Assembly: GCF_009909615.1 (NCBI RefSeq)
Contig: NZ_WWNE01000006.1
Span: 1-64,000 of the forward strand
Direction: 5' to 3'
From: Acidiluteibacter ferrifornacis
Lineage (GTDB): Bacteria; Bacteroidota; Bacteroidia; Flavobacteriales_E; Vicingaceae
DNA length: 64,000 nt
How positions within the stretch are numbered: the first letter of the stretch is position 1; each line of letters starts with the position of its first letter. Position numbers and translations under genes: made by a program. Positions 895 to 24,110 of the stretch are shown here, piece after piece. The notes beneath the pieces were generated by a model, which did no database searches, was not told the DNA's origin, and was given only the letters and a program-made list of their open reading frames with translations.

Positions 895-923
895 AAGATA
901 GCGTTCATTCAACTATAACAATC

Positions 924-960
924 AAAAGCCCCCAAGATTTAAATCTTGGGGGCTTTTTTA
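924..960 (+). terminator. Rho-independent terminator of the first T9SS cargo gene
   Basis: A perfect inverted repeat (AAAGCCCCCAAGATTT and its complement, 925-956) is followed by a T run, 30 bases after the stop codon. The same GCCC...GGGC stem core recurs after the next three paralogues. Confidence 0.85.
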
Positions 961-1111
961 ATACCATTTTACACGAATATAGATAAACAAATCTCGTATA
1001 CCTTTCATATTAAAACTATTAATATTCTATAAAACAAGAATAGTGTGGCTATTTGAAAATTGAGAAACATTAAAGAATGTCTCGAAATGCTGCCTTTTAA
1101 CAAATTTTAAT

Positions 1112-1119
1112 TAAATTGG
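1112..1119 (+). promoter_or_regulatory. Possible -7 promoter element of the 2021-residue cargo gene
   Basis: TAAATTGG lies 33 bases before the ATG and resembles the Bacteroidota box TAnnTTTG with mismatches. The context TTTTAATTAAATTG is close to the better match at 61888. The two short paralogues downstream also carry TAAATTG 22 bases before their ATG. The -33 element is not clear. Confidence 0.3.
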
Positions 1120-1152
1120 GGTTCCGTAAATTCTAACTTAAACTAATAAACT

Positions 1153-7100: not shown

Positions 7101-7218
7101 TGTTAAAAACAGAATTTCAAACAAAGTGATTGATTTATCAAAAATCGAAAGCGGTATCTACTTCGTAAAAGTGGTGAATGGCTCTTCTATCGTCACTAAA
7201 AAATTAGTAGTGAATTAA
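1153..7218 (+). CDS. Giant multidomain T9SS cargo protein with two beta-helix modules
   Basis: This 2021-residue protein has a signal peptide (1-24, ending LSAQ). Next come a LamG/concanavalin-like domain (~25-235), a CARDB-like Ig domain (~240-345) and a right-handed parallel beta-helix (~350-795, many N-N and Y-Y-G turns). A second Ig domain (~804-910) and a second beta-helix (~919-1354) follow. The C-terminal part holds an FN3 domain (~1361-1448), a jelly roll (~1452-1630), a third Ig domain (~1633-1735), another jelly roll (~1746-1930) and a T9SS type A sorting domain (~1940-2021). The two Ig plus beta-helix halves are clear internal duplicates: both contain WS[VI]DGVLQTPI and SATNFID. 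Beta-helix proteins of this type are often adhesins or polysaccharide-active, but I see no lyase catalytic motif. I infer a surface adhesin or glycan-binding protein. Confidence 0.8.
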   Translation: MKKIMPLIRVVFSLLLFTNLNLSAQIIWQDDFETYVTDSIIEPQSPLWNGWGGAVTSALVSGDSAFNGTNSLKIWNGLPPGAAVALSDVLLDLGDSTSGRYEFNFKVLIPSNLGISGAGGYYNIQHTIDATNTGVEFAFEVYLGPDGESYISVMGQQYSIPERLDEWVTITHIFDLDRDRHDFFYDGIWITTQPFSAQSNTTVLGTNRLAGMDLYAACSNSCPELAYFDDFVFKHFPDQQNDGGIIAINSPTYCQGDSIPLLIDLKNWGFNAINSASINWSVDGVLQTPITYSGVLAPDSIETINLGKFKFTGTYPYNVKFWISGVNGVADTVAFNDTNKIEIGGPGVSGNFTINSLLAPSATNFIDFTSFFNFINQSNVCGDVIVDVVPGSGPYMEQVAVSGIQGAANAKLIINGNGELLDFAATTSTERATFAIENSSYITLDSLNISASGSTYGVALYMDDIDNVTIKNCTFSVDSTSTSTNYSSVRISGIQTTQSSATSFNNLVFEGNTVIGGYYGFSFYGNSTSPSSNILIKNNKFRGFYYYGNYLYYSDNMIYEGNDISRPNRSVVTTLYGLYMFGHTNQVVNRNRIHNLFDGATTSSSTCYGLYNSSDASTSNSNVVMNNLLYGFNHRGSVYALYDGGSDNTYYYNNTVSLDNTTNTSGSSYAMYHPTASIGTEFQNNIVSVSRGGSGTIYGLYFTQSVAVSNHNNVFINSAGTGNHYYGYNGSAKSTLADWKASGYGSNDVDTDPLFNNIALDDFQPMSVSLNAAGFPAPQVTEDFNGAPRIVAANDIGSFNIQSPPLDVAAAKIDVATPFCASTQPVSVVISNNGSVKVDSLMINWSIDGVLQTPIAYKTVIDTAGALTGNKDTVLLTNYTFASGVGADFVAWLSAPNGVSPDSYIANDTASRFVGGALVGNYTVNPSLPASATNFIDLNTMSTNLSTFGVCGPVSITVSSGNYTSNISLDNVEGSGANNPILIDGVDSSLTFVTYPGNGIGIGAISINNTDNVTIKNFSLEASANSNAVGAIIANSSNITVSNCYMEVDTVSTSSTLNGISISSNITGNSSGGSGRNIRFENNTIKGGYYGFYAYGSTGEAIQNIQLINNTFSRPYYYGLYTYYCDTLDLIGNNINLMDRANVNADGAYIYYTSNARINGNNISAPDYGLYYYIFTYYWPKTIKTEFINNMIYSDTDYGLYVYYADSVDIFHNTVVSNSSSSSAVRLYGTGSNSQDFDVRNNIFYSNGADALNTNVSDLTMFSVFDYNNFYTTGSSLLTINGTPYSDLAGYVLAQPGFNANSIEGNPIFVNVNSDLHLLGTLVNGQGDNTVGVTTDIDGDLRPLSGSTIVDMGADEFDPPSCPPPTAVTITNATFTTADINITGGATSTWTYEYGSVGFTPGTGTFGTAATAISTITGLTSGSAYDLYIREICTATDSSPQVGPYSFVTAYGVPYSEDFENFTVGETGPNFSNGWTSTAASGFGWESELGSGFNTNSSSTGPLWDRTNFGTTSGIYMYMETSGGTTGDTTILASPPIFVDPNKTTLLLEYSLFNYGANVDRMDVLIDTNGVSNVVASFVGQQQTSQSDAWIDTSVVLQGYQGKSVQIMFRGVNVACCTGDIAIDQIRLFDTVAVDLAIDSIVSPVSNCGLSSASNVTVSISNVGLTGMSNFPVSFELNGGTAVTETVTATILPGNSLNYTFTTTVNLQTVGSYDLKSYIAVPGDGDLMNDTVSSIVNSGFAQPLNQAFPFYYNDFEGTANNWVTYGTNNSWEIGTPSTFYISGPAGGLNAYVTSASGNHNANEMSYIETPCFDLSLFTSSDIFDISFKALYKTEMDSDQVWMEMSMNNGASWTKVMPSGSSINFYNNSNDNVWDNFSSGGTGNYIPVLNTLTGIGGNSQVKFRFAFRSNGSNENDGFAMDEFRMNSPLYTGVDGNGLTDASFGLYPNPAKDNVTITFNNVEAGNYEMTIEDVKGQKVVNEVITVKNRISNKVIDLSKIESGIYFVKVVNGSSIVTKKLVVN

Positions 7219-7244
7219 ACATGAATTCAATCCTAAATTTTATC

Positions 7245-7277
7245 AGCCCTCAAGATTTTTCTTGGGGGCTTTTTTTG
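7245..7277 (+). terminator. Rho-independent terminator of the giant cargo gene
   Basis: AGCCCTCAAGA pairs with TCTTGGGGGCT around a TTTT loop (one G-T pair) and is followed by seven or more Ts. Confidence 0.85.
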
Positions 7278-7319
7278 TAATGAATTGATTTGTTTTTAAT
7301 TCTAAAATTTACGTACTTT

Positions 7320-7475
7320 AAATTGTCTAAAATTCAATACATTACCTATGAATAAAAATCAAATCTACTCCTTTCGACACTTTATAACATTTATAGCAAT
7401 CCTACTCCTTTCGTTCAATAGTACTGCTATTGATTTATCGGTGGATTCCATTCTTTCTCCTGTTTCAGATTGCGG
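7320..7475 (+). repeat. Direct repeat, copy A: promoter region plus signal-peptide coding sequence
   Basis: These 156 bases match 8703-8858 with only about three substitutions by eye. The repeat covers the region before the ATG, the full signal peptide and the first mature residues. The offset between copies is 1383 bases, which is the length of the tandem gene unit. Confidence 0.9.
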
Positions 7476-8598
7476 GATCTCTACCCTATCTTTTGTTGAA
7501 GTAAAAATTCACAACCACGATTCGGTTGCGGTTTCTAATATTCCGATTTCTTACCGTTTAAATGGTGGAGCTACCGTAACAGAAATAATTACATCAAGTA
7601 TTTTAGGAGGAAGTAGTTTTAATTATACCTTCACCTCGACTGTAAATATGCAAACCCATAGAGTTTATGAAGTTCAAATATATACTGCGTTGATTAGTGA
7701 CACGAATTCGTTGAACGATACTTTAAGTAAAACAGTTGTAAATGGGTATATACATCCTCTGAATTTTACAAACCCTTTCTATTTCTATGACTTCGATAGG
7801 CCTCCGATTGAATGGGTGACATATGGAACCAATAATTCTTGGGAAATGGAAACACCTAGTACCAGCTATATCAGTAATGCAGCAACAGGATCTACTGCAT
7901 TTGTTACCAATGCAACTGGAAACTATAATGCCAATGAATTATCGTACATTGAAACACCTTGTTTTGATTTATCATTTTTCGATCAAACTGATTATTTTGA
8001 CCTTATTTTTGAATGCTTGTATAGATTGGAACCAGATTCAGACTATGTTTGGATAGAACAATCAGTAGATGGAGGAAATGCTTGGACAAAAATACTCCCT
8101 AAAACCCTATCTATCAATGTATACAATGACACCTCATTAAAAGCATGGACAGGAATATCTAATGCAGGAGCTGGAAATTTCATACCTACGATGCATATAG
8201 CAGATAACATTGGTGGCCGCTCAAAAGTAAAGTTTCGATTTGTATTTAAATCTAATGGAACAGTTCAAGATGATGGATTTGCAATTGACAATTTTAGAAT
8301 TAATCCCCCATATTGGATCACAAACATAGAAACCAACAACTTTAAGCATGTCGATTTTAACCTTCACCCCAACCCTTCCAATCAAAATATTACCATTTCA
8401 TTTAATTCGATTGAAAAAGAAAGGCACACATTAATTATTGAAAATATTAAAGGTCAACAAGTGTTGAAAGAATCAATACCCATTCAAAATGGCCTTGCCT
8501 CAAAAGTGATCGATGTATCTCAATTTAAAAGCGGCATCTACTTCGTAAAAGTAGTGAATGGCTCTTCTATCGTCACTAAAAAATTAGTGGTGAACTAA
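7348..8598 (+). CDS. Short T9SS cargo paralogue 1 (CARDB-like, jelly roll, sorting domain)
   Basis: This 416-residue exported protein has a signal peptide (1-27, ending NSTA), a CARDB-like Ig domain (~28-120, with ILSPVSDCG), a jelly-roll domain (~140-325, with YGTNNSWE and ELSYIETPCFDLS) and a T9SS type A sorting domain (~337-416, with HPNPS, SGIYFVKVVNG and KKLVVN). It is colinear with the last ~390 residues of the 2021-residue protein upstream. It looks like a C-terminal fragment of that gene which gained its own promoter and signal peptide. It has its own terminator, so it is probably transcribed alone. No enzymatic motif is visible. I infer a surface-displayed or released binding protein of unknown ligand. 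Confidence 0.85.
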   Translation: MNKNQIYSFRHFITFIAILLLSFNSTAIDLSVDSILSPVSDCGISTLSFVEVKIHNHDSVAVSNIPISYRLNGGATVTEIITSSILGGSSFNYTFTSTVNMQTHRVYEVQIYTALISDTNSLNDTLSKTVVNGYIHPLNFTNPFYFYDFDRPPIEWVTYGTNNSWEMETPSTSYISNAATGSTAFVTNATGNYNANELSYIETPCFDLSFFDQTDYFDLIFECLYRLEPDSDYVWIEQSVDGGNAWTKILPKTLSINVYNDTSLKAWTGISNAGAGNFIPTMHIADNIGGRSKVKFRFVFKSNGTVQDDGFAIDNFRINPPYWITNIETNNFKHVDFNLHPNPSNQNITISFNSIEKERHTLIIENIKGQQVLKESIPIQNGLASKVIDVSQFKSGIYFVKVVNGSSIVTKKLVVN

Positions 8599-8624
8599 AC
8601 ATTAATTCAATCCTAATTTTTATC

Positions 8625-8660
8625 AGCCCTCAAGGTTTTTCTTGGGGGCTTTTATTTTTA
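8625..8660 (+). terminator. Rho-independent terminator of short cargo paralogue 1
   Basis: AGCCCTCAAGG pairs with TCTTGGGGGCT and is followed by TTTATTTTT. It is the same element as after the other paralogues, with small changes at the base of the loop and in the T run. Confidence 0.8.
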
Positions 8661-8702
8661 CAAAGAATTGATTTGTTTTTAATTCTAAAAATTACGTTCT
8701 TT

Positions 8703-8858
8703 AAATTGTCTAAACTTCAATACATTACCTATGAATAAAAATCAAATCTACTCCTTTCGACACTTTATTACATCTATAGCAATCCTACTCCTTTCGTTCA
8801 ATAGTACTGCTATTGATTTATCGGTGGATTCCATTCTTTCTCCTGTTTCAGATTGCGG
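8703..8858 (+). repeat. Direct repeat, copy B: promoter region plus signal-peptide coding sequence
   Basis: This is the second copy of 7320-7475, with about three substitutions by eye. Such low divergence next to much more diverged jelly-roll coding DNA points to recent duplication or local gene conversion. Confidence 0.9.
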
Positions 8859-9969
8859 AATTACTACCTTATCATTTGTTGAAGTGAAAATTCACAACCA
8901 TGATTCGGTTGCGGTTTCTAATATTCCGATTTCTTACCGACTAAACGGAGGAGCACTAGTAACAGAGACAATCACTTCATCCATTTTAGGAGGAAGCAGT
9001 TTTAATTATACCTTCACCTCGACTGTAAATTTGCAAACCACCGGAGTGTATGAAATTCAAGTATATACTGCGTTGACTAGTGACACGAATTCGTTGAACG
9101 ATACTTTAAGTAAAACTATTAGGTCTAGCTCAATTTACCAATTGAATCAAACTACTCCTTTTTACTTCAACGACTTTGAAGATTCAATAAATTCTTGGTT
9201 AACCTATGGAATTAATAATTCTTGGGGAAGGGGTACACCAAGTACGTTATACATTAGTGGTCCTGCAGGGGGCTTTAAAGCATACGTGACTAATGCAACT
9301 GGAAACTATAATGCCAATGAATTATCATACATTGAAACTCCGTGTTTTGATCTTTCTTTATTCGTTCAAACTGATGGATTTGAAATGTATTTTGAATTAT
9401 TGTATAATATGGAGTCCGATACGGACATGGTATGGATGGAACAGTCAATCGATGGGGGAAACTCTTGGACAAGGGTACTACCCTCAAGTGCTTCTTTCAA
9501 TTTCTACTCAAATATATGGACAGGTTCTTCAAGTAGTGGCTCGGGCAACTATATTCCTGTCTTTAACTTTTTTACAGGGATAGGAGGATTTTCTCAAGTG
9601 AAATTTCGATATGCATTCAAGTCGAATGGTACCATTCAAAATGATGGATTTGCAGTTGATAATTTTAGATTTCAAATTCAAGCAATGTCAACAGTAGTTG
9701 GAAATAATAATTTAAAGGCTAAAAACTTTAAACTTCACCCCAACCCTTCCAATCAAAATATAACCATTTCATTAAATGCAAATGAAAATAAAAACCACAC
9801 ATTAATTATTGAAAATATTAAAGGTCAACAAGTGTTGAATGAATCAATATCCATTCAAAATGGCCTTGCCTCAAAAGTGATTGATGTCTCTACTTTTGAA
9901 AGCGGAGTATACTTCGTAAAAGTGGTGAATGGCTCTTCTATAGTCACAAAAAAATTAGTGGTGAATTAA
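8731..9969 (+). CDS. Short T9SS cargo paralogue 2 (CARDB-like, jelly roll, sorting domain)
   Basis: This 412-residue protein has the same layout as the gene before it: signal peptide (1-27), CARDB-like Ig domain, jelly roll (with FYFNDFED, ISGPAGG and ELSYIETPCFDLS) and T9SS type A sorting domain (HPNPS, SGVYFVKVVNG, KKLVVN). The first ~110 residues and the last ~80 are nearly identical to paralogue 1. The central jelly roll differs much more and in places is closer to the 2021-residue protein (ISGPAGG). This mosaic suggests recombination between copies. Its promoter and terminator were duplicated with it. Confidence 0.85.
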   Translation: MNKNQIYSFRHFITSIAILLLSFNSTAIDLSVDSILSPVSDCGITTLSFVEVKIHNHDSVAVSNIPISYRLNGGALVTETITSSILGGSSFNYTFTSTVNLQTTGVYEIQVYTALTSDTNSLNDTLSKTIRSSSIYQLNQTTPFYFNDFEDSINSWLTYGINNSWGRGTPSTLYISGPAGGFKAYVTNATGNYNANELSYIETPCFDLSLFVQTDGFEMYFELLYNMESDTDMVWMEQSIDGGNSWTRVLPSSASFNFYSNIWTGSSSSGSGNYIPVFNFFTGIGGFSQVKFRYAFKSNGTIQNDGFAVDNFRFQIQAMSTVVGNNNLKAKNFKLHPNPSNQNITISLNANENKNHTLIIENIKGQQVLNESISIQNGLASKVIDVSTFESGVYFVKVVNGSSIVTKKLVVN

Positions 9970-11808: not shown

Positions 11809-13002
11809 CTATCGAATATCCAGTGTTAATTTAAACCGCAACACTCTGCCATTACCAGCATCTGCTACATATAATATCTTATTGTTGTAGGCAACTGAAG
11901 TTGGTTCTTTAAACTGATTCAACTCGACTCCTGTTCCACCAAATGAAGTTTTAACAAATTTGGTTTCTCCCGATGCGGGTGGTGGCGTTACACCTTCGAA
12001 TCCATTTCCTGAAAACTGATAAATGGAGTCTTTTTCTCGATCCGCTACAAAAATGTAATTGGTCCCATCACCAGTAATTGTAACACCATAAGGCTGCTCA
12101 AACTTATAAGGTGTAAATAGAAAACCATCAGCTTCTGATGCATCTCCAGGAGGAGCAACAACTGAATTATACTGACTTCCAAAATCTGACTCTGAATACT
12201 CTATGACTTGGAGTTTCAAAACTGTTTCATCATTCAAAGAGGTAACAATAAAATTTTGACTAGACGATGCGTTAATCTGTGGTGGTTTTACAAAAGATGA
12301 AATCGCATAAGGTTTCTTAAAATAGAATCTATCATTTGCACCACTAACGTTTACAGCAATTGGTGTAATAAAATTATCATTGGCATCAAACTGCAATACA
12401 GCATCATCAGGAGTTCTAGCAGATGAAGCGGTGTTGTTTGGACCCGTTCTCGTAACATAATACTTATTATCCGACAATGTACCAATTCCATTAAATTTAA
12501 CTAAATCATCATTTGATAATAAAGTAGTTCGATCATAAAAAGGATGAATAACTTCATTTGTAATTTTTGCATACTTTATGCCATAGCCTAATGGAGATGA
12601 AAGATCCAATCTATATATACATGTCAGTTTTCTTAAAGTTCCACTAATCATAGTATCTTTTCTTCCGATTGCTAAAATATCCAATCGCCTATCTTGCGCT
12701 ATAGAAATTACTCCTGGAACTGATTTTCTGCCCAATTCTCGCCCTGATTCGTCCATTGCAACAATCTCTTCAGTGGCATTATCTACCACATAAATTAACT
12801 CATCAAAGCCTGCCAAAACAAAAGTTGGGCGAACGAAGTTATCCAATACAGGCTGCACTGGCACATATGCCACCTCTCTATAGTTTTGTGTTGGAACTTC
12901 GATAAAATCCAAATTGGTTTTATCCCCAAAATATTTTTCACATGAAGTGAATAGCAAAATTGAGGTCAATCCTAAAAATTGAAATACTTTAATACTCTTC
13001 AT
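11809..13002 (-). CDS. Lipoprotein with NHL-type beta-propeller repeats
   Basis: This 397-residue protein has a lipoprotein signal peptide with lipobox LFTSC (lipidated Cys21). The mature part is beta-rich with recurring FxxPxGVxxxxxxxIFVADxxxxxIxxF units, clearest at ~315-350 and ~365-397 (DAGNGRVLRF). These resemble NHL propeller repeats. In other proteins such propellers bind partners or ligands; no enzyme motif is seen. It is the last gene of the minus-strand envelope locus. Its ATG overlaps the stop codon of the PorV-like gene by one base (TAATG), which implies translational coupling. It probably sits on the outer membrane. Confidence 0.75.
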   Translation of the reverse strand: MKSIKVFQFLGLTSILLFTSCEKYFGDKTNLDFIEVPTQNYREVAYVPVQPVLDNFVRPTFVLAGFDELIYVVDNATEEIVAMDESGRELGRKSVPGVISIAQDRRLDILAIGRKDTMISGTLRKLTCIYRLDLSSPLGYGIKYAKITNEVIHPFYDRTTLLSNDDLVKFNGIGTLSDNKYYVTRTGPNNTASSARTPDDAVLQFDANDNFITPIAVNVSGANDRFYFKKPYAISSFVKPPQINASSSQNFIVTSLNDETVLKLQVIEYSESDFGSQYNSVVAPPGDASEADGFLFTPYKFEQPYGVTITGDGTNYIFVADREKDSIYQFSGNGFEGVTPPPASGETKFVKTSFGGTGVELNQFKEPTSVAYNNKILYVADAGNGRVLRFKLTLDIR

Positions 13003-14018
13003 TATCGCTCCTCCATTTTATTAAATGCCATTGAAAGTCCTATCATATGTTGAAATCCATAATATTCTGTAGGATTAGCTGCATAATCTATATGGATGGG
13101 AAACCCTGCTACGTTGGCTCTCACTCCCAGACCAAATGTTGGTAATCCTTGCCCTTCTATATTCAATTTTATACCAGTCCTAACAAACAATAACTTCATG
13201 TATTCGAATTCCAAACCGGCTCTATAGTTCTCCGCATTGTCATTGGGGTGATTTAATTGTACAGAGGTAGTTAAAGAATACCTCTCCTTTTTAAGTGGTA
13301 CCATGGAAGCTCCTAATTTAAATACAGTGGGTACTGTATAATCTTGCAACTCCAATGAGTTCAAATCACGGTTAAAGTTTACTTGCACTTCATCTCCACT
13401 CAAAGCCGAATTCCCTCCAAAATTTTGCACCATTACCGCAAACTTTAAGTCCTTATAATCGGTATAGTATAGGAATGAAACATCAACTGCTACTGTAGAG
13501 TTTCTATATTCTGCAATCTGTTCGTAGATGTATTTGAAACTTACACCCGCCGAAAACATATCAGACAACTTTTTTGAGTAACTAAAGCCTGCTGCTAAAT
13601 TTGTTACGTAAAACTGCTCCCCGGTTCCTTCTGGCTGAAATTCAGTCCGAACATCCATCTTACCTGAGTTCAGTATATTTAAAGTCAACCCAAATGCTGA
13701 CTCATTTTTTCTGGGAAGTATGGCAGAAACAAAAGACTGTTGAACGCCAGCTCCCAGACTTAAGCTTGAGGTGGCCAATGTAAACCCTTTGGCATCTGTA
13801 GCTGAAGCGGGATTGGTATATAATGAATAGGCATCACCACTTAATGCCACACTCGTTCCTGATAAACCTGCTGATCGAGGACTCATGTCGTTTTTTAAAA
13901 ACGATAAAGATGACAAGCCGGCCCTTTGCCCTCCAAAGTTGGGTAGCAACTGCGCCGAGGTATCACTAGAAAAAATGAATCCCAAAAATAATAATGATAT
14001 ATATAATGTTTTTTTCAT
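13002..14018 (-). CDS. PorV/PorQ-family outer-membrane beta-barrel protein
   Basis: This 338-residue protein has a signal peptide (1-22, ending SAQ). It then shows the PorV/PorQ pattern: an N-terminal segment with SPRSAGLSGTSVALSGDAYSLY and NPAS, followed by alternating amphipathic strands (for example LGLGVRANVAGFPIHIDYAA) and a short C-terminal strand ending GLSMAFNK. PorV binds T9SS cargo at the Sov translocon and hands it to the attachment complex. PorQ-like relatives are less well defined. Here it lies 2 bases after the TonB-dependent receptor gene in a locus that encodes T9SS cargo, so a dedicated shuttle or barrel partner is plausible. It is probably not the main PorV, because no other T9SS core genes are adjacent. 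Confidence 0.75.
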   Translation of the reverse strand: MKKTLYISLLFLGFIFSSDTSAQLLPNFGGQRAGLSSLSFLKNDMSPRSAGLSGTSVALSGDAYSLYTNPASATDAKGFTLATSSLSLGAGVQQSFVSAILPRKNESAFGLTLNILNSGKMDVRTEFQPEGTGEQFYVTNLAAGFSYSKKLSDMFSAGVSFKYIYEQIAEYRNSTVAVDVSFLYYTDYKDLKFAVMVQNFGGNSALSGDEVQVNFNRDLNSLELQDYTVPTVFKLGASMVPLKKERYSLTTSVQLNHPNDNAENYRAGLEFEYMKLLFVRTGIKLNIEGQGLPTFGLGVRANVAGFPIHIDYAANPTEYYGFQHMIGLSMAFNKMEER

Positions 14019-14020
14019 GC

Positions 14021-16870
14021 TTAAAATCTAAATGCTATCCCATATAAAATGTGTCTTGGAGCTAAGTACCTAGCAGGATTATCCGAAGGTACTCCACTTT
14101 CCTCAGGCCCAATATATCTTGGGTCTCTCCATTCATTTGGCACATCATCCCCGATTTCATAACCTTCGCCTGTGATTGGATTAATGATCTGTGCATTTTT
14201 GTTATTGAATATATTTCGAATCTCTACAGAAACTGTAATTCCAGAATTTTTATCTTTCAATGGAATATCCTTACTCAGTTTTAAGTCACCACTAAACCAA
14301 GCTTTAGCGCTTTTAGAAAGGTATTTATCTTCTTCTAATCGGTATAATGGTCGGCCAAGATCGTTGTAGCCATCGAACGCATATGGAGTGTATCTAAATC
14401 CTGATTGATAATTCATAGAGAAAAATGCTCTAAACCCATTGGTGGATACACCAAAAATTCTCAAAGTTGTATCACCTTTTAATACCAAACCTGCTGTAAT
14501 GTCCCATGGACGATCAAATGCCAAATATTGCTCAGAAGTCAATGGTACAGAACCATTTTGCTCAATTTGCAATCCGGACTCTCTGGCGGAGTTTGACTTT
14601 CCTCTCGCTACCTGATAGGTCACATTTAAAAAGGTTCTAATATGCTTTCCAAATCGATTAGATATTCCTGCTTCTACTCCAATTACTTTAGCATAATCCT
14701 GATTGATATACATCCGTTTAGTAACGGGTCTTCCTGTTTGGTCGTTTACAATTACACTTCGTTGAACGATATAGTCAAATCTATTGTTATTAAAAGCAGC
14801 TACATTTACACCAAAATCCTTTGTAATTTGAGCTTTGTAACCAATTTCATAGGAAATGTTTACTTCAGGGTCAATATCTGGATTACCTAGGTTAGATAAA
14901 AACGATTGATCTTGGTAATCCGGATCCAAACCAGCATATAAAAATCTAGGATGAGGCAGTTTCATGGAGTGTCCGTAATTGAAATACAAGACATTGTTTT
15001 CCGTTACAGGGAACGAGACATTGATTTTCGGTAATAACCGAGTCTTGATTCTATACCCCGCAAAACCAACTGTTTTGTCTTTATAATCTGTTCGAACTTG
15101 GTCAATTACTGGAGAGTTCGGATCTTCTACTGCATTATCAGCAAATTTTCCTGGTGCCCAATAATTTAATCGAGCTCCAACTGTCGCTATAATTCCTTTG
15201 TAGTGGATCTCATCTGAAATAAAGAATCCACCATTAAAAGGCTTTACTGCCCATATATCATTAGAAGAACCAACACTTGTTGAAGGTGTTGTTAATGAGT
15301 CGTTAATTACAATTGGCGCTCCGATCCATGGTTTTGTAACATCCACCCATTGATAGGCTGTAGATTTGTGCTCAAAGCCGAATGAGAGCTTATTGTCTCC
15401 TGTTTTAGAGTATCTAGAGAATGAAGTATTTAATGTCAACTCTCTTGCATAGTGATCGTGCCAAACAGGAGATATACCACCATTATTATATAATCCTGGG
15501 CCAGGAAGAACATACTGCACATCACTTCCAGGATTAAAGATAGTAACCGGGTCAGTAACAATTGAGCTTTCGTCATAAATCTGATCCACTGTTGGGTATC
15601 TGAAAGGTCTTCCATTTGCATCTGCTCGCAGATTGGTAAATAAGCGTCCAACTGATACATTAAACCACCATTGGTCATTGATCAAATGCTTTAGATTTAA
15701 TGCCGTCAAATTGGACTGATGCGTATAGGTGGTAGCATTGTCCAGATTCAGACTCCTTTCCCATTGAAATCCAGGTTGGAGGATGGCATCAAAACCCACT
15801 ATTTGGAGTGTTCTCGTGTTTTGATTTACTCTTAAACTATGCTGATTAGTAATCGTTATTTTGGTTCCCTTCTTAAATTTATAACCCAGCTTTACGGTAT
15901 TGGTATATGCGTTATCTTGTCTAGGAGACCATAAAGAATCGTTGCTAGTGAATAAAGAGGAATGCAATTGATCCGCAGTTGGACCAAAATAATTATCTGA
16001 CAAATTCATCGTTGCATTCACAAAGAATGAAACTCGTTTGTTGGTAAATGGGAGAGGTCCTCCAATAGAAAATTCAGCAATATCAGTATTCCAAGCAGTA
16101 CCTTGATTTTTATTGAATCCAAAATTATCTCGTTGCCAACTTCCTGAAATCTCAATGGTCTCGCCACCTTCACGAATGGTAGTAGAAATAATCCCTGAAG
16201 AGCCATCGCCATATTCGGCACCAACTCCACCAGTAATAATATTCAAACTTTCAATAGAACTAGAAGAAACATCTACACCAAAACCAGTTCCTGCTAATGG
16301 ATCCTGAGCTGATATTCCATCAACAACATATCTCGTTTCGTATACTCTTGCCCCACGAATCTGCAGACCATCAGGAGTTTTATTAACTCCAGTTTGCATA
16401 GCTGCCAATTCTTGAACATCCCTCACATTCATTTCCTTGATTTCTTCCCGTGAAATCTTAACCTCTGTGCTAGCGGATTCCAAATTTACGATACTCTTAT
16501 TTCCGACAATAGTAACTCCTTCTAATGTCTGTGAAGCAGGTAGCATTTTTACATTAAGAGTAGTTGTTTCTCCGGCCTTCACGGTTACACCGTTGTACTG
16601 CTTTTCTCCAAAACCTATAAAGGTAAATTTTAGGGAATAATCCCCAGGCTTCATTTTTAAAAACTCAAAATTTCCATCCAAATCAGCAGAAGCTCCTCTA
16701 TATGTACCAACAACCAATACAGTAGCTCCAATTAATGGCTCTCCTGTTTGTTCATCTAATATAACCCCTTTAATGGTTCCAGTATTGGCTACTTCTCCTT
16801 GATCCTCTTGCGCAAAAAGTGGATGAAAACATATGATAAGAAGCGCTATTAAAAAGTTAAATTTCTTCAT
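14021..16870 (-). CDS. TonB-dependent outer-membrane receptor with carboxypeptidase-regulatory-like domain
   Basis: This 949-residue protein has a signal peptide (1-20). A carboxypeptidase-regulatory-like domain follows (~30-115, GVILDEQTGEPLIGATVLV and DLDGNFEF), then a plug domain (~135-245, LQIRGARVYETRYVVDG and GAEYGDGSSGIISTTI) and a long beta-barrel ending in a terminal Phe. TonB-dependent receptors use TonB-ExbBD energy to import bound ligands across the outer membrane. It is not a typical SusC: no SusD-like gene is adjacent. The partners encoded around it are two lipoproteins and two T9SS-type proteins. It starts 3 bases after the upstream lipoprotein gene. The substrate is not evident from sequence. 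Confidence 0.85.
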   Translation of the reverse strand: MKKFNFLIALLIICFHPLFAQEDQGEVANTGTIKGVILDEQTGEPLIGATVLVVGTYRGASADLDGNFEFLKMKPGDYSLKFTFIGFGEKQYNGVTVKAGETTTLNVKMLPASQTLEGVTIVGNKSIVNLESASTEVKISREEIKEMNVRDVQELAAMQTGVNKTPDGLQIRGARVYETRYVVDGISAQDPLAGTGFGVDVSSSSIESLNIITGGVGAEYGDGSSGIISTTIREGGETIEISGSWQRDNFGFNKNQGTAWNTDIAEFSIGGPLPFTNKRVSFFVNATMNLSDNYFGPTADQLHSSLFTSNDSLWSPRQDNAYTNTVKLGYKFKKGTKITITNQHSLRVNQNTRTLQIVGFDAILQPGFQWERSLNLDNATTYTHQSNLTALNLKHLINDQWWFNVSVGRLFTNLRADANGRPFRYPTVDQIYDESSIVTDPVTIFNPGSDVQYVLPGPGLYNNGGISPVWHDHYARELTLNTSFSRYSKTGDNKLSFGFEHKSTAYQWVDVTKPWIGAPIVINDSLTTPSTSVGSSNDIWAVKPFNGGFFISDEIHYKGIIATVGARLNYWAPGKFADNAVEDPNSPVIDQVRTDYKDKTVGFAGYRIKTRLLPKINVSFPVTENNVLYFNYGHSMKLPHPRFLYAGLDPDYQDQSFLSNLGNPDIDPEVNISYEIGYKAQITKDFGVNVAAFNNNRFDYIVQRSVIVNDQTGRPVTKRMYINQDYAKVIGVEAGISNRFGKHIRTFLNVTYQVARGKSNSARESGLQIEQNGSVPLTSEQYLAFDRPWDITAGLVLKGDTTLRIFGVSTNGFRAFFSMNYQSGFRYTPYAFDGYNDLGRPLYRLEEDKYLSKSAKAWFSGDLKLSKDIPLKDKNSGITVSVEIRNIFNNKNAQIINPITGEGYEIGDDVPNEWRDPRYIGPEESGVPSDNPARYLAPRHILYGIAFRF

Positions 16871-16873
16871 CTA

Positions 16874-18301
16874 TTAATTGAATTCTACATTCAATACTTG
16901 ATTAAACAATGCGTCTAAATCTGATTGGTTCTTATTGAATTTCCACAACTGAACTGAAAAGAAAACCTGAAAAGCTTTACCGTTTCTTTTACGAACAGAT
17001 CCTACTATATTTGGCCCTCTCCAGTTGTTATTAGGTTTTTTTATTTGTCCCGTGTAAAACACTTCTGCATCTGAAGTTGGATAGAATGTATTTACCGCAT
17101 CAACAAAATTCGCAGGATACAGCAAAGGAAATTGATTATTCGTTGGAACAATCGCACTATCATTAAAAATACGAACTCCAAAATCTGAGGACTCTGCCAA
17201 TGTGTCTATCGGCATTACCCCATAAATGGGATCCATATTTGAAGTGGTTTTAAAATCTGTAGTAATGAGGAATTTTCCACCGATGTTTGCATACTCTTGA
17301 AATGAAGGAGCTGCAAATTCCAATAGCATACCAGATTGATTGTTATACGGATTGATTACAGCAGATTCATCAGAGAAGAAGACCACTTTTTCGTATTGCA
17401 AAAGCATTAGTGTAAAAGTAGGATTCCACAACCGCGGTAAATTCTCTGAAGAGTTGACTAGAAAGTCGATATAATCGTATGAAACACCAATATTATTCAA
17501 AGTAGATTTATATATATTGGCGGGAATAGTCGAAAGCCCTGCAATTAACAAGACGTCATTATTCTTTCCTTTTAAATAAAAAGTGGTAGAGGTATCTACT
17601 TTACTTTCTGCATTTGAAACGTCTACAACTTTTAAATAGAAAGTATTGGTATCATTCACTCGAAGTCCATCTAAAATAAGTGAACTCGGATTTTTGTCAT
17701 TTTCATAATATATCAATGCATTCCCTCTTCCACTAGTCGATGGATTCTCAGGGATGATTGAAAAAGTTTTTCTATCTCTATTGATTTCAAACCACTGCCC
17801 ATCATTAATTTTTAGATAAGCAGCTTTGATAGATTCGTTGCCATCTACATCGGAAGCAGTCCATGCTCCGGTGACAACAATATTCGCACTATCAGGAAAC
17901 TCCAATTGTTCGTTAAAAGTAGCTTCTGGTGGTGTATTTTTTAAAGGTATTCTTAAAAATGCAGGTGAAGGATCTACTAACCCTTCGTTGTCCACTGCTC
18001 TAACATAGATATTGATGTCAACAGTATCCGACTCGGCAGATATGGAAAATCTGAAAGTTGAATCTTGATTAGTGACATAACTCCATGTGTTATTGTCAAA
18101 GGAAAGTTCATATCCTTTAACGTAACCATCTGGGTCTTTTCCATACCAGCTTAATCGAACCACGCTGTTCAATCGATTTTCGCCAGTTAAATTAATTTCC
18201 TTAATAGAAAATTGTGTTTCAGGAGATTGATTAAAATCCTTCTCTCCTTTGTCGCAAGCGACTAAAAACAAGAAACAAAAAATGTATACTAAATGCTTCA
18301 T
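16874..18301 (-). CDS. Lipoprotein with Ig/FN3-like domains and a possible GATase-like C-terminal domain
   Basis: This 475-residue protein has a lipoprotein signal with lipobox LVAC (Cys16). Two beta-sandwich domains follow (~30-125, with RLSWYGKDPDGYVKGYE; ~128-240, with WTASDVDGNES). From ~250 there is an alpha/beta-looking part: VLLIAGLS, then YDYIDF, KVVFFSDESAV and GGKFLITTDF. That order resembles the class I glutamine amidotransferase-like fold found at the ends of some secreted proteins, but I see no Cys-His catalytic pair. The fold call is an inference. The gene is separated from the OB-fold gene upstream by a hairpin, and from the TonB receptor by only 3 bases. It probably acts on the cell surface with that receptor. 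Confidence 0.6.
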   Translation of the reverse strand: MKHLVYIFCFLFLVACDKGEKDFNQSPETQFSIKEINLTGENRLNSVVRLSWYGKDPDGYVKGYELSFDNNTWSYVTNQDSTFRFSISAESDTVDINIYVRAVDNEGLVDPSPAFLRIPLKNTPPEATFNEQLEFPDSANIVVTGAWTASDVDGNESIKAAYLKINDGQWFEINRDRKTFSIIPENPSTSGRGNALIYYENDKNPSSLILDGLRVNDTNTFYLKVVDVSNAESKVDTSTTFYLKGKNNDVLLIAGLSTIPANIYKSTLNNIGVSYDYIDFLVNSSENLPRLWNPTFTLMLLQYEKVVFFSDESAVINPYNNQSGMLLEFAAPSFQEYANIGGKFLITTDFKTTSNMDPIYGVMPIDTLAESSDFGVRIFNDSAIVPTNNQFPLLYPANFVDAVNTFYPTSDAEVFYTGQIKKPNNNWRGPNIVGSVRKRNGKAFQVFFSVQLWKFNKNQSDLDALFNQVLNVEFN

Positions 18302-18313
18302 AGATAAAAATAA

Positions 18314-18341
18314 TGGGGAGCAGAATTAAATCCGCTCCCCA
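18314..18341 (-). terminator. Intra-operon hairpin, probable attenuator or partial terminator
   Basis: Read on the minus strand, TGGGGAGC pairs with GCTCCCCA around a 12-base AT-rich loop. ATTATTTTTATC follows, an imperfect T run. It starts 11 bases after the stop of the OB-fold T9SS gene and ends 13 bases before the lipoprotein ATG. It should lower expression of the lipoprotein, receptor and barrel genes relative to the secreted proteins. Confidence 0.6.
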
Positions 18342-18351
18342 ATAAATGAAA

Positions 18352-20538
18352 TTATTTTGAAATAACCAACTTAGTAGTACCTACCACTTCATTGTTATTC
18401 ATGATTCTAACAATATAGATACCATTGTTAAAATCAGAAACATTTACGTTATTCGTAGTATTTCTTAAAGATTCAGACTTTAACAATTGACCTTTTAAGT
18501 CATAGAAAAACGCTTCATAATTAACGCCTTCTGCATTTTTAACCTCAATAGTAACATTGCTTGAAGCAGGGTTTGGATAATACTTCATATTGATAGTATT
18601 ATTAACTTCTTCCTTTGCACCAACAATCACTAGAGGAAGTGAGAAGTTAATGATGTCTGCATTATTTCTAGGAGTTAATTTAAAAGTTCCAAAAGAATAC
18701 CAAAGAATTCCAACCATTGCATCCATATCTTGAGTGGTATCAGTGATAATAGCAGGAACATTCATTACTCCTTGATTCTGGATATAGAAAGAGTCAGTTA
18801 CTAAAGAAACATTTAATGAAGATTGAGCAGTAGTACCACTAACTCTTCCGCTAAGAACTCTAACAAAATCATTAGATCCTGACAAACCAATACCAAACTC
18901 ACCGTTGTTTAAGTCTGCTTCAATGATATCAATTTTTCCATTATTAGGATCATCTAAACTAATCAACATCCCTTCATACATCTCAGCTTTTGCATCAAAA
19001 TTAGCATCAGGTGTTACTGAAATAGGAGCTATATTAAATGTGGTATTCAATTTAGTAACGTTTGTTACAGTTACAGTAGTTACTCCATAAACCTCAGATA
19101 CGTCACCGGTAATTGTAGCTACATCACCTATAGCCAATCCTGCTAAAGCAGCATTTCCTGTAACATAAACACCCGCGTATTCTGTAGCAATAGTATCCTG
19201 AATGTAAACATAACCTAAATTATACTGATTCAAAGTAGCAGTAACTGCTCCTGTGAACGTAACTGACTGTCCGTCATAAGGGGAGTCCGTACTTGAGTTA
19301 GGTCCAGGGTTCTGAACATCAACAATTGAAAAACCAGTAGATCTAACAGTGTAAAAAGCAACACTATTAGCACTCGGGTATGAAGATACGTTGGAACTAT
19401 CATCTGTTGCTTCAATAAAGTATCTTACCATTGTATCTAATGGAAAAGCAGGAATTGTAGCTGTGTAAGAATTACCAGTAGCAGTCATTGCTACGGAAGT
19501 AAATGTTGAACGAGTTGCAGCTGGATCTGCAGAGTAAAATAGACTCGCTGAAGTTACTACTCCATCATTATCAATAATATCAGCTGTAATCGTAACGGTT
19601 TGAGTTGCATTCGGAACTATTGGATTTCTAACTACGTTGGTAATTGAAGGAGGTGTAGCACCCTTTACATAATGCGTAGAGTCAAAAGGATTCAATTCAT
19701 AACCTCTTCCTGTTCCACCAGTACAGCCATTTTCAGAGTGTCTAATCATTCCTTTGATTGAACTATACACTGTTCCAACAACTGGAGCAACAAATGTCCC
19801 AGTTCCAGGTCCACCGTTAGCTACAGAATTCGGAGAATTTGGATTAACGACCGTATGAGATGGTAAACGCTGTGCTAAAAACTCATCGGATACATTAATT
19901 TCATTTCCATTCGCATCAGCGATATCAAAACTAACTCTAGAACCACCGCCAAAAAAACTTACACCAATAACAGTTACATTTTGAAATTCTACAAAAGAGC
20001 CTTCCCATTGTTCTCCAGTTGTTAATTTATTCACTCTACTTTGGTCATTTAAATCTCCAATAGAGATCAATGCTGGAGTTGGAGTAATCGCAGATGGAGT
20101 AATTAACGTCACAGAACTACTTGTTAAAGGAGTTAATTGCAATCCACCTTGATACTGATTAACAATTCCAGTAATTTCAATCAAATCACCTGATTGAGCA
20201 CCTTCAATTGCTGGAGCGGGAGTATTACCTACTGCTCCCATCACTTCAATACCCAAGAAAGAACCTGCCGCGCCATTAGCCGAAGCAGTATCTAATAAAT
20301 AGATAAAAGGGCGAGATCCACCTGTTACCGAACTTGAAGCTACTTCAGACAAATTTCCAGGTGTAACGACGTAACCTCGAGTAATTACTGTATCTCCTAA
20401 GTATTGATTGGTATCAATACAAGCAGCTAAATCTGAAGGACTGACATAACTAATGTCATAAATAGAAACAGGTGTTTGAGCCATTGCCCAAGTTCCTGCT
20501 GCCATTGCAACTAAAGAAAGTAAAATTTTTTTCATCAT
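18352..20538 (-). CDS. T9SS-exported protein with YhcR-type OB-fold domains
   Basis: This 728-residue protein has a signal peptide (MKKILLSLVAMAAGTWAMAQ; a double ATG makes the start uncertain by one codon). A first OB-like domain (~25-150) has GDTVITRGYVVTPG and GDLIEITGIVNQYQGGLQL. A mid-region (~300-390) has IIDNDGVVTSASLFYS and FIEATDDS, like Ig domains of secreted hydrolases. A second OB-like domain (~410-510) has VTFTGAVTA, GYVYIQD and GDVATITGDVSEVYGVTTV. The protein ends in a T9SS type A sorting domain (YYPNPASSNVTIEV...NGIYIVRIM). The OB domains resemble those fused to extracellular nucleases (YhcR/ExeM type). The nuclease-fold domain itself is missing here but is encoded two genes upstream. 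I infer a surface nucleic-acid-binding protein. Confidence 0.7.
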   Translation of the reverse strand: MMKKILLSLVAMAAGTWAMAQTPVSIYDISYVSPSDLAACIDTNQYLGDTVITRGYVVTPGNLSEVASSSVTGGSRPFIYLLDTASANGAAGSFLGIEVMGAVGNTPAPAIEGAQSGDLIEITGIVNQYQGGLQLTPLTSSSVTLITPSAITPTPALISIGDLNDQSRVNKLTTGEQWEGSFVEFQNVTVIGVSFFGGGSRVSFDIADANGNEINVSDEFLAQRLPSHTVVNPNSPNSVANGGPGTGTFVAPVVGTVYSSIKGMIRHSENGCTGGTGRGYELNPFDSTHYVKGATPPSITNVVRNPIVPNATQTVTITADIIDNDGVVTSASLFYSADPAATRSTFTSVAMTATGNSYTATIPAFPLDTMVRYFIEATDDSSNVSSYPSANSVAFYTVRSTGFSIVDVQNPGPNSSTDSPYDGQSVTFTGAVTATLNQYNLGYVYIQDTIATEYAGVYVTGNAALAGLAIGDVATITGDVSEVYGVTTVTVTNVTKLNTTFNIAPISVTPDANFDAKAEMYEGMLISLDDPNNGKIDIIEADLNNGEFGIGLSGSNDFVRVLSGRVSGTTAQSSLNVSLVTDSFYIQNQGVMNVPAIITDTTQDMDAMVGILWYSFGTFKLTPRNNADIINFSLPLVIVGAKEEVNNTINMKYYPNPASSNVTIEVKNAEGVNYEAFFYDLKGQLLKSESLRNTTNNVNVSDFNNGIYIVRIMNNNEVVGTTKLVISK

Positions 20539-20560
20539 TTCAATTTTTGAATTTCAATTA

Positions 20561-22717
20561 TTATTTAATTATTGTGAATTTGCCTCTATATGTTTCATTA
20601 TTATCCAAATTTTCTACAGAGAACAGATAAAGTCCTCTACTGATAATTTGGGTAGATTTTGATAGTAAATCCCAAGCGTGCTCACCGCCTGAAAACTTAT
20701 TGTTCTTTTTATTCTCAGCTCCAAAAGTGTCAAACCATTTAATATCACTTCCATCGTATTCAGGATTGTGATAAATTTCATCGATTAAATCTCCAGCTGG
20801 AGCAAATACTCGAATAATACATCGTTCGGGTAGATTACTAAAAATTAACTTTCTACTTTGTTCTTGAAAATTACTTCTTCCTTCCCAAGATGCACCCATG
20901 TAGTATGGATTAGGATAGGCAAATGGTTCATTTTCATCAAATGAATCGGATGGCTTTTTACCTGGAAATACTCTAAAGTTATTACCCAATATACTGGATT
21001 CTAAAGATTCCAAATTACTTTCCTCGTCTCCTGTATCAAATGAAGAAACAGCGACTGCATATTGCCAACCATCCAACAAATTATCTATTACATATTTATA
21101 TTGATACACATTGGTGTCTCCATCAAATAAAGCTGGCGTAGTTAATCGTATATCATCCAATCCAATATCTTTAAACTTTCCATTATTGGGTAAATCATAC
21201 TCGTCTAGTGCGACAAGATCTTCCGCCAAATTTTGCACTCCAGTTACATCAAAGCCTAATTTCGATAAGTATATACGGTAGCCTTCAAAATCTTTTTGAT
21301 TCGTAATTGGGTCGATTGATTCCTCTGCATTATCCGTCCAGTAAATTTCAATCTTTTTGTCTTGAGCAATTACTTTAGTTCTAGGAATTGCAGGTGGCTC
21401 AGGCAAAATGAATCGAGTAATTTTACCATTGTTATCATTATCCTCACCTGGATCCAACACTCCATTAAAGTTGATATCTTCACCGTAATAAGCCAACTGA
21501 GCTCGATCTGCGTTAGCAAACAAATTTCTCTTTTGCTCAAATGTATTGGCTGATGTTGGATTTCCATCATCAAATTTCTTGGCCATAATTATCGCATAAG
21601 AAACGCGTAACGTATCGCCCTTCTTGAAATCTCTAAATGGTCCTACGGATACTAAATCCGAGCGATTTCCTGCCATGTTCAATGACTCTTGATAACTTCT
21701 TCCTGTACAACCTTGGGCAGAACCATCTTCCCAACATGGGCTATCATTCAATCCTTTGGTCATTTTCTCGTAACGAGCATTATCATTGGCAGGTTGAAAG
21801 AAGATAGGATCAGATGAACTGTTAAACGTCCAAGCACTATAATGAGCATCAAAGCTAGGATCTAAAGTAGGGTGATGAAATCCAAACTTATCTTCAGCAC
21901 CTAAAAACTTTTGTCCAATATAGCTATCGGTAAAGCCAACATCTCCTGCCTTGTCATAACAATAAGCGATGTCCAAAGAATCAATAAATCCATTTCCTCC
22001 TTTATCATAAAAAGACACTCCTCCAGAACCTACAGGAGTAATATTGGTATTACGAACAACTGTATTGGCATAAAAAGCAAAAAAAGCGCTATCTATTAGA
22101 CTTACTGGATCTCCTTTTCGACCTAAATTAATAATCTCGAAATCCAAAAACACTATAAAGTCACTAAAGGTAAAGTTCCAATTATATGTCTTTTGAATAA
22201 TTTTAACGTTCAATGGCTGAGTATGTCCTGCAATAGGAACTCCAGGACCTCCGGAACCACCTGTTCCGGGTACAAACAAATTGGTATCTGTGTAAGATGC
22301 AATAAAGTCTTCATGAGAAACCGCATTGGGGTTATAATTTGGACTATCATATAGAGAAGATCGTACATTAAGTCGATTTCCGATTTCCCCAGTGAATTCA
22401 TACCCACCTCTACCAGTAGCATACCCTTGCGGTTGGTCAAATGCCGAAGTAGATACTAATGGTTGACCTCCTGCGTTTTTTCCTCCAACCCATACACCAG
22501 CTTCAAACAAATGTTCAATTCCTGAACCAGCAGGATACTCGCACGATTGATTACCACTTCCATCTCGATATCCTCTAAAAGCATTTCCGAAAGTACCAAC
22601 GTTGGTAACTGTTATCCTTGTATTGGATACTGATGTCAAACGCTCCTCAAAAGAAGTCGTTTGACCAAACACCAAAATACTACTAAAGAGAAATAATATA
22701 GATAAACCTTTTTTCAT
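20561..22717 (-). CDS. Large exported protein of unknown function with a sorting/FlgD-like C-terminus
   Basis: I chose the ATG at 22717 (718 residues, MKKGLSILFLFSSILVFGQ) over the TTG two codons upstream, because it begins a classic signal peptide. The body is beta-rich. It has a conserved-looking N-terminal block (GVWVGGKNAGGQPLVS), a segment DFEIINLGRKGDP, and at ~410-430 an acidic EF-hand or dockerin-like loop (DINFNGVLDPGEDNDNNG) that could bind calcium. An FN3-like domain follows, then a C-terminal domain starting YPNPYY and ending RGLYLFSVEN...GKFTIIK, which resembles T9SS type A or FlgD Ig-like tails. It lies 22 bases before the OB-fold gene and is cotranscribed with it. I recognise the architecture but not a function. 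Confidence 0.65.
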   Translation of the reverse strand: MKKGLSILFLFSSILVFGQTTSFEERLTSVSNTRITVTNVGTFGNAFRGYRDGSGNQSCEYPAGSGIEHLFEAGVWVGGKNAGGQPLVSTSAFDQPQGYATGRGGYEFTGEIGNRLNVRSSLYDSPNYNPNAVSHEDFIASYTDTNLFVPGTGGSGGPGVPIAGHTQPLNVKIIQKTYNWNFTFSDFIVFLDFEIINLGRKGDPVSLIDSAFFAFYANTVVRNTNITPVGSGGVSFYDKGGNGFIDSLDIAYCYDKAGDVGFTDSYIGQKFLGAEDKFGFHHPTLDPSFDAHYSAWTFNSSSDPIFFQPANDNARYEKMTKGLNDSPCWEDGSAQGCTGRSYQESLNMAGNRSDLVSVGPFRDFKKGDTLRVSYAIIMAKKFDDGNPTSANTFEQKRNLFANADRAQLAYYGEDINFNGVLDPGEDNDNNGKITRFILPEPPAIPRTKVIAQDKKIEIYWTDNAEESIDPITNQKDFEGYRIYLSKLGFDVTGVQNLAEDLVALDEYDLPNNGKFKDIGLDDIRLTTPALFDGDTNVYQYKYVIDNLLDGWQYAVAVSSFDTGDEESNLESLESSILGNNFRVFPGKKPSDSFDENEPFAYPNPYYMGASWEGRSNFQEQSRKLIFSNLPERCIIRVFAPAGDLIDEIYHNPEYDGSDIKWFDTFGAENKKNNKFSGGEHAWDLLSKSTQIISRGLYLFSVENLDNNETYRGKFTIIK

Positions 22718-22765
22718 AAGCAATGCAAAGTTCTTTATTATTGAATTGGCAATTGAATAACAGTG

Positions 22766-24070
22766 TTAAATCTTTATTAACTTTTGAATTTTTACCAACT
22801 CCTTACCTTCATATATCTTTAGAATATAAGCCCCTCTTTTCAAATTAGAGACATCTATTCTAATAAAAGAAGTCTGATTATTAATGGACTCCATTAAGAC
22901 TCTTCCATTCATATCGAATAACTGAATCAATGAAGATTCAAAATTTTTGCCTTCTTTTATAATTCCTAAAAAATCCTTTAGAGGGTTAACAACTCTAATG
23001 TTTTCTCCTAATGTAGAGGAAACAACATTTGTTGGGATAGAATAATCTATTTCATAGGATGAGGTCACTGGTAAATGATCACTCATATTATACAAAGCAT
23101 TCGCAACAGTTGAAGGAACCAATGGATTAGTAGGTGAATTAATATTTCCATTGAAACGATTTCCATCTTGTCCTAAAGCGGTGTATGAGTTGGGTATATA
23201 CCTCATCCGATTGACATTATTTAATACCTCATCAGAAACTAAAGTAAAATCAAATCGATCGTCCATTCCACCGCCAGCTGCACATCCATTGCTTGAAGAG
23301 CGAACAGACTGGGTATGTGCATAGCTAAAATTGCTGTTGTTACTCCAGCTTCCAATAGTATTGATAGGATCAAAAAATCGAACAGATGGATTAGAACTGT
23401 AATTGATTAAATTTTGAAAAGCAGGCTCTGAAGCAGTATAAACATTAAAATCTCCACAGATAAAAACATTGCCTTGTATACTATTCTCATCCAAATATTT
23501 CATTATTGCGGCGGTGGTCTTTGCTCTCTCCAGCTGATCAGCAGAAGTGTTACTTGCTTTTAAATGAGCGGCCAACACTGTAAGATAAACGGTGTCGGTT
23601 TGAGCTGTCATATTCGGTTGTTTGTAATACAAACGGTATACATCAATTAAACGAACAATAGGGACATTATTGGTATCTCGCTCTATTTGATCTTGAGAAA
23701 TTAACCCCAATTTTGTAGTATTGAAGTACAGCATATTGGACAAGCTCGAGCCTTGAGTTACAAAATAATTGGCTTGCGCCCAATGGTTTACTCCATTAAC
23801 ATTTAAAGAGTTTTGCATTAGGTAATAACCATTCGCGAAATTGGCTCCAATTTCATTACAAACAAGCAAATCGGGTTTCACATGATCGACAATAGTCGCT
23901 AAATAACCTTCTTTGTCGGCAGTATTATTGTTGGTATTCGTACAATAAGTGGTAGAATTTCTATAATTCAGCAAGTTATATGACATGATCTTTATAGTAT
24001 CAAGTTGCTGAGAACTAACACTATTTATCGCTGATATAAAAATGAACGCAATCGAGAATAACTTCCCCAT
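22766..24070 (-). CDS. T9SS-exported endonuclease/exonuclease/phosphatase-family protein
   Basis: I chose the ATG at 24070 (434 residues, MGKLFSIAFIFISAINSVSSQ) rather than the TTG eight codons upstream, since it gives a normal signal peptide. The EEP fold motifs are present in order: IKIMSYNLLNYRN, LLVCNEIG (metal Glu), LAAHLKAS, FICGDFNVYTAS (Asp and Asn) and MSDHLPVTSS (catalytic His near the end). A T9SS-type sorting domain of ~75 residues follows (LIQLFDMNGRVLMES, RGAYILKIYEG). The family includes DNase I-like nucleases, phosphodiesterases and lipid phosphatases; the substrate cannot be told apart here. It lies ~48 bases upstream of the rest of the minus-strand locus and is probably its first gene. 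Confidence 0.82.
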   Translation of the reverse strand: MGKLFSIAFIFISAINSVSSQQLDTIKIMSYNLLNYRNSTTYCTNTNNNTADKEGYLATIVDHVKPDLLVCNEIGANFANGYYLMQNSLNVNGVNHWAQANYFVTQGSSLSNMLYFNTTKLGLISQDQIERDTNNVPIVRLIDVYRLYYKQPNMTAQTDTVYLTVLAAHLKASNTSADQLERAKTTAAIMKYLDENSIQGNVFICGDFNVYTASEPAFQNLINYSSNPSVRFFDPINTIGSWSNNSNFSYAHTQSVRSSSNGCAAGGGMDDRFDFTLVSDEVLNNVNRMRYIPNSYTALGQDGNRFNGNINSPTNPLVPSTVANALYNMSDHLPVTSSYEIDYSIPTNVVSSTLGENIRVVNPLKDFLGIIKEGKNFESSLIQLFDMNGRVLMESINNQTSFIRIDVSNLKRGAYILKIYEGKELVKIQKLIKI

Positions 24071-24110
24071 TATAATAGTTATAATTTTATGCAAAAAAAC
24101 TTCAATTACA

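Follow-up and report, generated by a model that had tools for sequence, protein, structure and literature searches.

A conserved outer-membrane locus without SusD in the Bacteroidota, with a probable role in nucleic-acid capture and import

Polymer uptake in the Bacteroidota follows, in the textbook case, the SusC/SusD route, whose polysaccharide utilisation loci (PULs) place a TonB-dependent receptor beside surface binding proteins and secreted degradative enzymes, and occur as several loci per genome that differ in their enzymes. In Riemerella anatipestifer, natural transformation requires an outer-membrane protein with a CarboxypepD_reg domain and a DUF5689 protein, encoded in one operon (RA0C_RS04915/04920; PMC8459023). 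In Flavobacterium johnsoniae, type B C-terminal domain (CTD) cargo of the type IX secretion system (T9SS) has cognate PorP/SprF-like shuttles, type A CTDs all being, according to the same study, recognised by PorV (PMC12618676). Here we describe a locus of seven neighbouring genes in a 64,000-nucleotide stretch of Acidiluteibacter ferrifornacis (contig NZ_WWNE01000006.1, positions 1 to 64,000 of the forward strand; hereafter the window). These genes form a real and ancient unit, with an order conserved across the phylum far beyond chance, and we read the locus as a station for nucleic-acid capture and import at the outer membrane, giving this model as a whole a probability of about 60%.

The seven open reading frames (ORFs) occupy positions 11809-24094 on the minus strand and are called g7 to g1 in transcription order. 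The first, g7 (22766..24094, or 22766..24070 with the internal ATG), encodes an exported accessory enzyme of the endonuclease/exonuclease/phosphatase (EEP, DNase-I-like) family with a T9SS type A tail. It is followed by the 720-residue signature surface protein g6 (20561..22723), which has no Pfam or NCBIfam family; the T9SS cargo g5 (18352..20538), with oligonucleotide/oligosaccharide-binding (OB) fold domains; the lipoprotein g4 (16874..18301), for which these databases likewise give no family; the TonB-dependent receptor g3 (14021..16870); the PorV-family barrel g2 (13002..14018); and g1 (11809..13002), a lipoprotein with NHL repeats (PF01436 over cut-off) that is beta-propeller-like and whose lipobox Cys21 is invariant. 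A preliminary description of the window, made from its letters alone, had given seven genes in one direction with this spacing, and all ORFs and gaps are as it had them (~42-48, 22, 50, 3, 2 and -1 bases from g7 to g1). Its claim that SusD is absent also holds, as none of the seven genes matches SusD in Pfam or NCBIfam. An Rfam scan of the window gave zero matches.

The conservation of this neighbourhood, on which the preliminary description had made its reading depend, is evident near home and across the phylum. Among 60 relatives, g6 is present in 22 (three of these by short weak matches alone), and all seven genes stand in the same order in about a dozen genomes that span several genera of the family, as well as in one genome from a second family. 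A set of 80 named loci from GTDB representatives gave 45 with the full ordered block, g5 being doubled in one of them, and contig ends cut most of the remainder; among the cultured carriers are Schleiferia thermophila, Thermaurantimonas aggregans, Phaeocystidibacter luteus and Salibacter halophilus. With the g6 profile, the gene was detected in 77 of 247 genomes of the phylum, all except the window's own genome from other classes, and in most of these 77 the best g2 match, read by eye, lies ~7-9 kb downstream of g6 on the same strand. The order g6-g5-g4-g3-g2-g1 is kept in 54 of 60 fetched stretches from many families (all six genes called in 46), with median gaps of 16, 64, -4, 2 and -1 bases. 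The six genes have been inherited together, as the pairwise distances of their proteins show (correlations of 0.80-0.95); recent assembly does not look likely. Two genomes (L061, L189) have g6-g5 and then a pair of genes missed by the g4-g1 profiles, their g2-like genes lying on other contigs. A sample of the window's own class gave g6 in 27 of 119 genomes. Across the phylum g6 is usually a single full copy per genome; a second, partial g6 with an EEP-tail remnant stands in tandem on a 6-kb contig (L076; G020 contig 173), a duplication or an assembly effect.

A tie to the T9SS is strongly supported. SprA, the T9SS channel, was found in all 77 genomes with g6, against 190 of 247 overall (P ~1.5e-11, uncorrected for kinship), and the present genome carries 114 T9SS-tail matches. 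Two cargo proteins had been predicted at the locus, and both g7 and g5 indeed exceed the Por_Secre_tail cut-off (PF18962; 41.4 and 50.7 bits, cut-off 27), g5 matching the TIGR04183 tail as well. For g6, previously proposed as a possible third cargo, the standard models are silent (no Pfam or NCBIfam match to its tail, Por_Secre_tail included), and a profile comparison speaks for the cargo assignment: its last ~120 residues align with the g5 and g7 type A tails (hhalign 88.5%, E 2.7e-6 for the single comparison; 0.15% for a control stretch), relating them as a long variant of type A.

The cargo proteins also bear on the substrate. Residues 429-629 of g5 match the first half of NF033681, the ExeM/NucH model (E 5.6e-14), and g7 matches its second half weakly, with scores (52 bits for g5, 22 for g7) below the family cut-off of 300. 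Judged by sequence, g5 and g7 together look like an ExeM/NucH extracellular nuclease divided in two, the OB region of one and the EEP domain of the other recalling the two halves of the enzyme, here spread over two T9SS cargos that each remain under the family cut-off. The first OB region of g5 is in addition related to DUF5689 by profile comparison (hhalign 97%, E 9.8e-11, profile columns 41-287), the domain itself scoring below the Pfam cut-off. The candidate catalytic residues of g7 (N32, E73, H169, D207, N209, D274, D331 and H332) are invariant in 12 orthologues; a PDB sequence search with g7 returned tail matches only.

In the window's wider group g7 is part of the block; elsewhere it is not. 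In other families a phosphodiesterase gene often comes immediately after g1, and the enzymes are of three unrelated types: an EEP, mostly T9SS-tailed (L055, L057, L058, L064, L067, L071, L156, L157, L172, L177 and L181), a NucT-like protein with two phospholipase D (PLD) domains and a T9SS tail (L154, L155, L158, L160, L161, L163, L166 and L183), or a member of PF01663 (L062, L063, L165, L169, L170, L173, L180 and L185). One further EEP lies 5' of g6 (L184). An adjacent same-strand phosphodiesterase occurs in 28 of 54 loci (12 EEP, 8 PLD/NucT-like, 8 PF01663), and the same profiles hit 5 of 315 other genes in those stretches (Fisher 5e-16, a figure that flatters, since part of the material for the profiles came from adjacent genes). 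Pfam directly confirmed 13 of the 27 phosphodiesterases that follow g1, the rest being recognised by profiles built from the confirmed ones. The EEPs of this 3' slot in distant loci reach 46-62 bits against PF03372, and a pattern search found one or more HxKxxxxD motifs in seven of the eight PLD proteins. Among named proteins, those that the locus enzymes match best are nucleases (NucT, ExeM/NucH and MnuA). For the PLD proteins in the slot of related loci this is Helicobacter pylori NucT, a PLD-family nuclease, from which they differ in having two PLD domains, an OB region and a T9SS tail; the window has no such protein. All the PF01663 genes belong to a single family (f44) and may be part of the next operon; in f44 the PF01663 gene is mostly followed by a gene of 111 residues and one or two of ~270 residues. 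The recurrence of three unrelated phosphodiesterase types in one slot reinforces nucleic acid, the first guess of the preliminary description, and we consider nucleic acid a probable substrate.

The receptor and barrel set the locus apart from PULs and from the general secretion apparatus. g3 has CarboxypepD_reg (PF13715), plug (PF07715) and TonB barrel (PF00593) domains over cut-off and a conserved TonB-box-like motif, EVVVIG. A SusC/SusD PUL is ruled out, since g3 lies far below the SusC cut-off (TIGR04056, 73.6 bits against 368) and no SusD stands beside the receptor; in its place is a T9SS-exported surface partner next to a PorV-like barrel. That barrel, g2, exceeds the cut-off of the PorV/PorQ family model (NF033709, 157 bits against 90) and falls below the equivalog cut-offs of PorV (NF033710, 62 against 250 bits), PorQ and PorV2. 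The genome holds seven PorV-family members, and its canonical PorV gene occupies 376905-377969 of the same contig (433 bits, where g2 has 157), so that g2, which might have been the organism's general T9SS PorV, is not; by sequence it is a PorV-family paralogue. The structures of g6 and g4 were predicted, because PDB sequence searches with their profiles found no match. The g6 model (AlphaFold, pLDDT 83.7) begins with a beta-supersandwich (residues ~22-438) of the GH94/GH116 type (best Z 19.5, root-mean-square deviation 3.4 over 257 residues), followed by a Ca-binding-like loop motif, a fibronectin type III (FN3)-like region and the long variant sorting domain. In g4 (pLDDT 89; lipobox C16 invariant), the N-terminal half is FN3-like and residues 247-475 adopt, in the model, a class I glutamine amidotransferase (GATase)-like fold (Z 14.8), as had been suspected from the sequence; a Pfam scan of 17 distant g4 proteins showed only FN3 and inserted repeats. 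No conserved Cys other than that of the lipobox was found among 59 orthologues, so g4 is probably no amidotransferase.

The association of g3, g6 and g2 recurs outside the locus. A search for g6-type sorting domains in 13 genomes returned many paralogues, and all 29 of the PorV-like genes listed outside the main locus (12 of the 13 genomes), that is, the listed PorV-family hits most similar to g2, stand directly after a long sorting domain, at 120-336 bases on the same strand (chance ~0.2% each); the statement covers that subfamily. In the window's genome, one of the six other PorV-family genes has a long sorting domain upstream, and the canonical PorV is without one. The 29 pairs bear out the idea of a private PorV-like protein for its own cargo, and g2 likely acts as a private shuttle for g6. 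The gene order recalls the type B CTD system of F. johnsoniae, where the cargo gene is likewise directly followed by that of its own shuttle barrel; the present system differs in its PorV-family barrels and long type-A-like sorting domain. A recent paper on the Bacteroidota BAM complex, examined for a link between PorV and the receptor, proved to be unrelated.

All 12 pairs that were fetched are triads led by a g3-like receptor, the receptors matching the g3 profile over most of their length (1e-104 to 1e-122) and the long-CTD proteins matching that of g6 in two to four blocks (1e-34 to 1e-51). The window's genome has a second triad (L215 1183-10286; contig 17, ~251182-260285) of a g3-like 1250-residue receptor (1.4e-72), a 1409-residue long-CTD protein and a PorV-like barrel. 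In many genomes of the class g3 finds its best match in a receptor of ~1250 residues like this one, and the L215-type cluster may be another widely conserved unit. The fetched triads are flanked by GH94 (L220, L230), GH16 with malectin and CBM9 (L226), starch-binding modules (L225, L228, L229), peptidases S51/M14 (L222, L224) or peptidase M16 (L223, L231), and such PUL-like loci (L220-L231) occur several per genome. As these flanks mirror the build of PULs, the nuclease and OB genes point to the substrate of the present locus. The triad has the look of a PUL-type core for uptake, the place of SusD being taken by a T9SS surface protein with its private PorV-like barrel. Whether it is a general TonB-dependent polymer-uptake core of the Bacteroidota, above all outside the window's class, parallel to SusC/SusD, with the PorV-like barrels a further class of dedicated T9SS shuttles and the seven-gene locus its most conserved, nucleic-acid-handling member, seems to us evenly poised. 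No description of a SusD-free locus or triad of this kind was found in the literature searched, which took in no preprints and few subscription journals, and the system looks like an overlooked alternative to SusC/SusD uptake.

From these data we infer complex formation, the shuttle role of g2, the substrate and the import of fragments. In the proposed mechanism, g5, g6 and g7 would be exported through the general T9SS channel; g2 would collect or anchor g6 by its long sorting domain and hold it beside g3; DNA or RNA would be bound by the OB domains of g5 and cut by the nuclease g7; g4 and g1 would make up the lipoprotein portion of the receptor complex at the cell surface; and g3 would move the fragments across the outer membrane with energy from TonB. 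Elsewhere, the g3-g6-g2 triad would serve as a general uptake core for other substrates. The "self-contained machine" proposed earlier is thus self-contained in part: it comes with a barrel, a receptor and cargo of its own, and would still need the general T9SS channel and TonB. Bacteroidota are known to consume extracellular DNA in marine sediments (PMC8289736).

Several points weigh against this reading. As an EEP, g7 is sub-threshold (PF03372, 14.9 bits; cut-off 24.5); an adjacent phosphodiesterase is missing from about half of the phylum loci, and the profiles behind the slot count derive in part from the slot genes themselves; the EEP, PLD and PF01663 families include phosphodiesterases of lipids and other substrates too; the g6 supersandwich is a fold best known from glycan-acting enzymes; and the short intergenic distances suggest a single transcript and stop short of proving it. 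If the reading is true, a SusD-free route found across the phylum, made of a TonB receptor, T9SS cargo and its own PorV-like barrel, joins protein secretion to nutrient import, unexplained PorV paralogues acquire a role, and there is a concrete candidate for the uptake of extracellular DNA, which would supply phosphorus or nitrogen and possibly serve transformation.

Natural transformation is the alternative that survives best, although we consider it unlikely. The same machine would import long DNA and pass it to ComEC, supplying the outer-membrane DNA-uptake step that is unexplained in this group. Compared by architecture, the R. anatipestifer operon shares with the locus a CarboxypepD_reg outer-membrane barrel and a surface DUF5689 protein (the domain type carried by g5), TonB mutants of that species transform less (PMC8383284), and a part in purine salvage and in transformation has been attributed to NucT (PMC5714352). 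Relatives without g6, one of them in the window's family, have loci of the Riemerella build, some with genes for g5-like T9SS proteins and EEPs close by. Among the 119 class genomes these loci never co-occur with g6 (18 against 27; P 0.006, kinship ignored). ComEC is present in all 41 g6 genomes tested, but it is common in genomes of other phyla too. The receptors of the Riemerella-build loci, moreover, are not g3-like: the g3 profile has no hit in most and a weak one in three, and in those genomes g3 is matched best by other receptors, of ~1250 residues, which rules out the Riemerella-type receptor as a g3 orthologue. Those loci also have no g6, g4, g2 or g1. Because the receptors differ, the locus in the window is not a member of the Riemerella system, though it may serve a comparable purpose. 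With glycan and peptide enzymes next to them, the triad paralogues speak for nutrition, which fits them better than transformation; the locus could serve both. Two Riemerella-build loci (L194 3651-12576 and L200 73-8545) have EEP genes and the gene of a g5-like T9SS protein on their flanks, one of the EEPs being a PF19580 member divergent to the receptor and another having a T9SS tail; possibly these genes extend the known transformation operon.

Scavenging of phosphate from phospholipids or other phosphodiesters, with no part for nucleic acids, appears to us rather improbable. It would accord with the lipid or general phosphodiesterases found in all three slot families, and with PF01663 in the slot of family f44; it leaves aside the OB domains of g5 and the nucleases that are the best named matches of the enzymes. 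Uptake of glycans, the nucleases being incidental, is more doubtful again. A beta-supersandwich of the g6 kind stands in front of the GH94 and GH116 catalytic domains, and the paralogous triads adjoin GH94, GH16 and starch-binding modules, but likeness of fold is not common function, neither the seven-gene block nor the scanned accessory-slot genes include a glycan-active gene, and nuclease types recur independently in the slot. A surface scaffold or adhesion unit without import, for which FN3, propeller and supersandwich would be typical binding modules, is very improbable given a TonB receptor whose plug and TonB-box-like motif are conserved throughout.

Apart from the nucleic-acid locus, the window contains further ORFs with T9SS tails, on the plus strand at 658-9963 (tails ending at 888, 7212, 8592 and 9963) and on the minus strand at 34716-34937.

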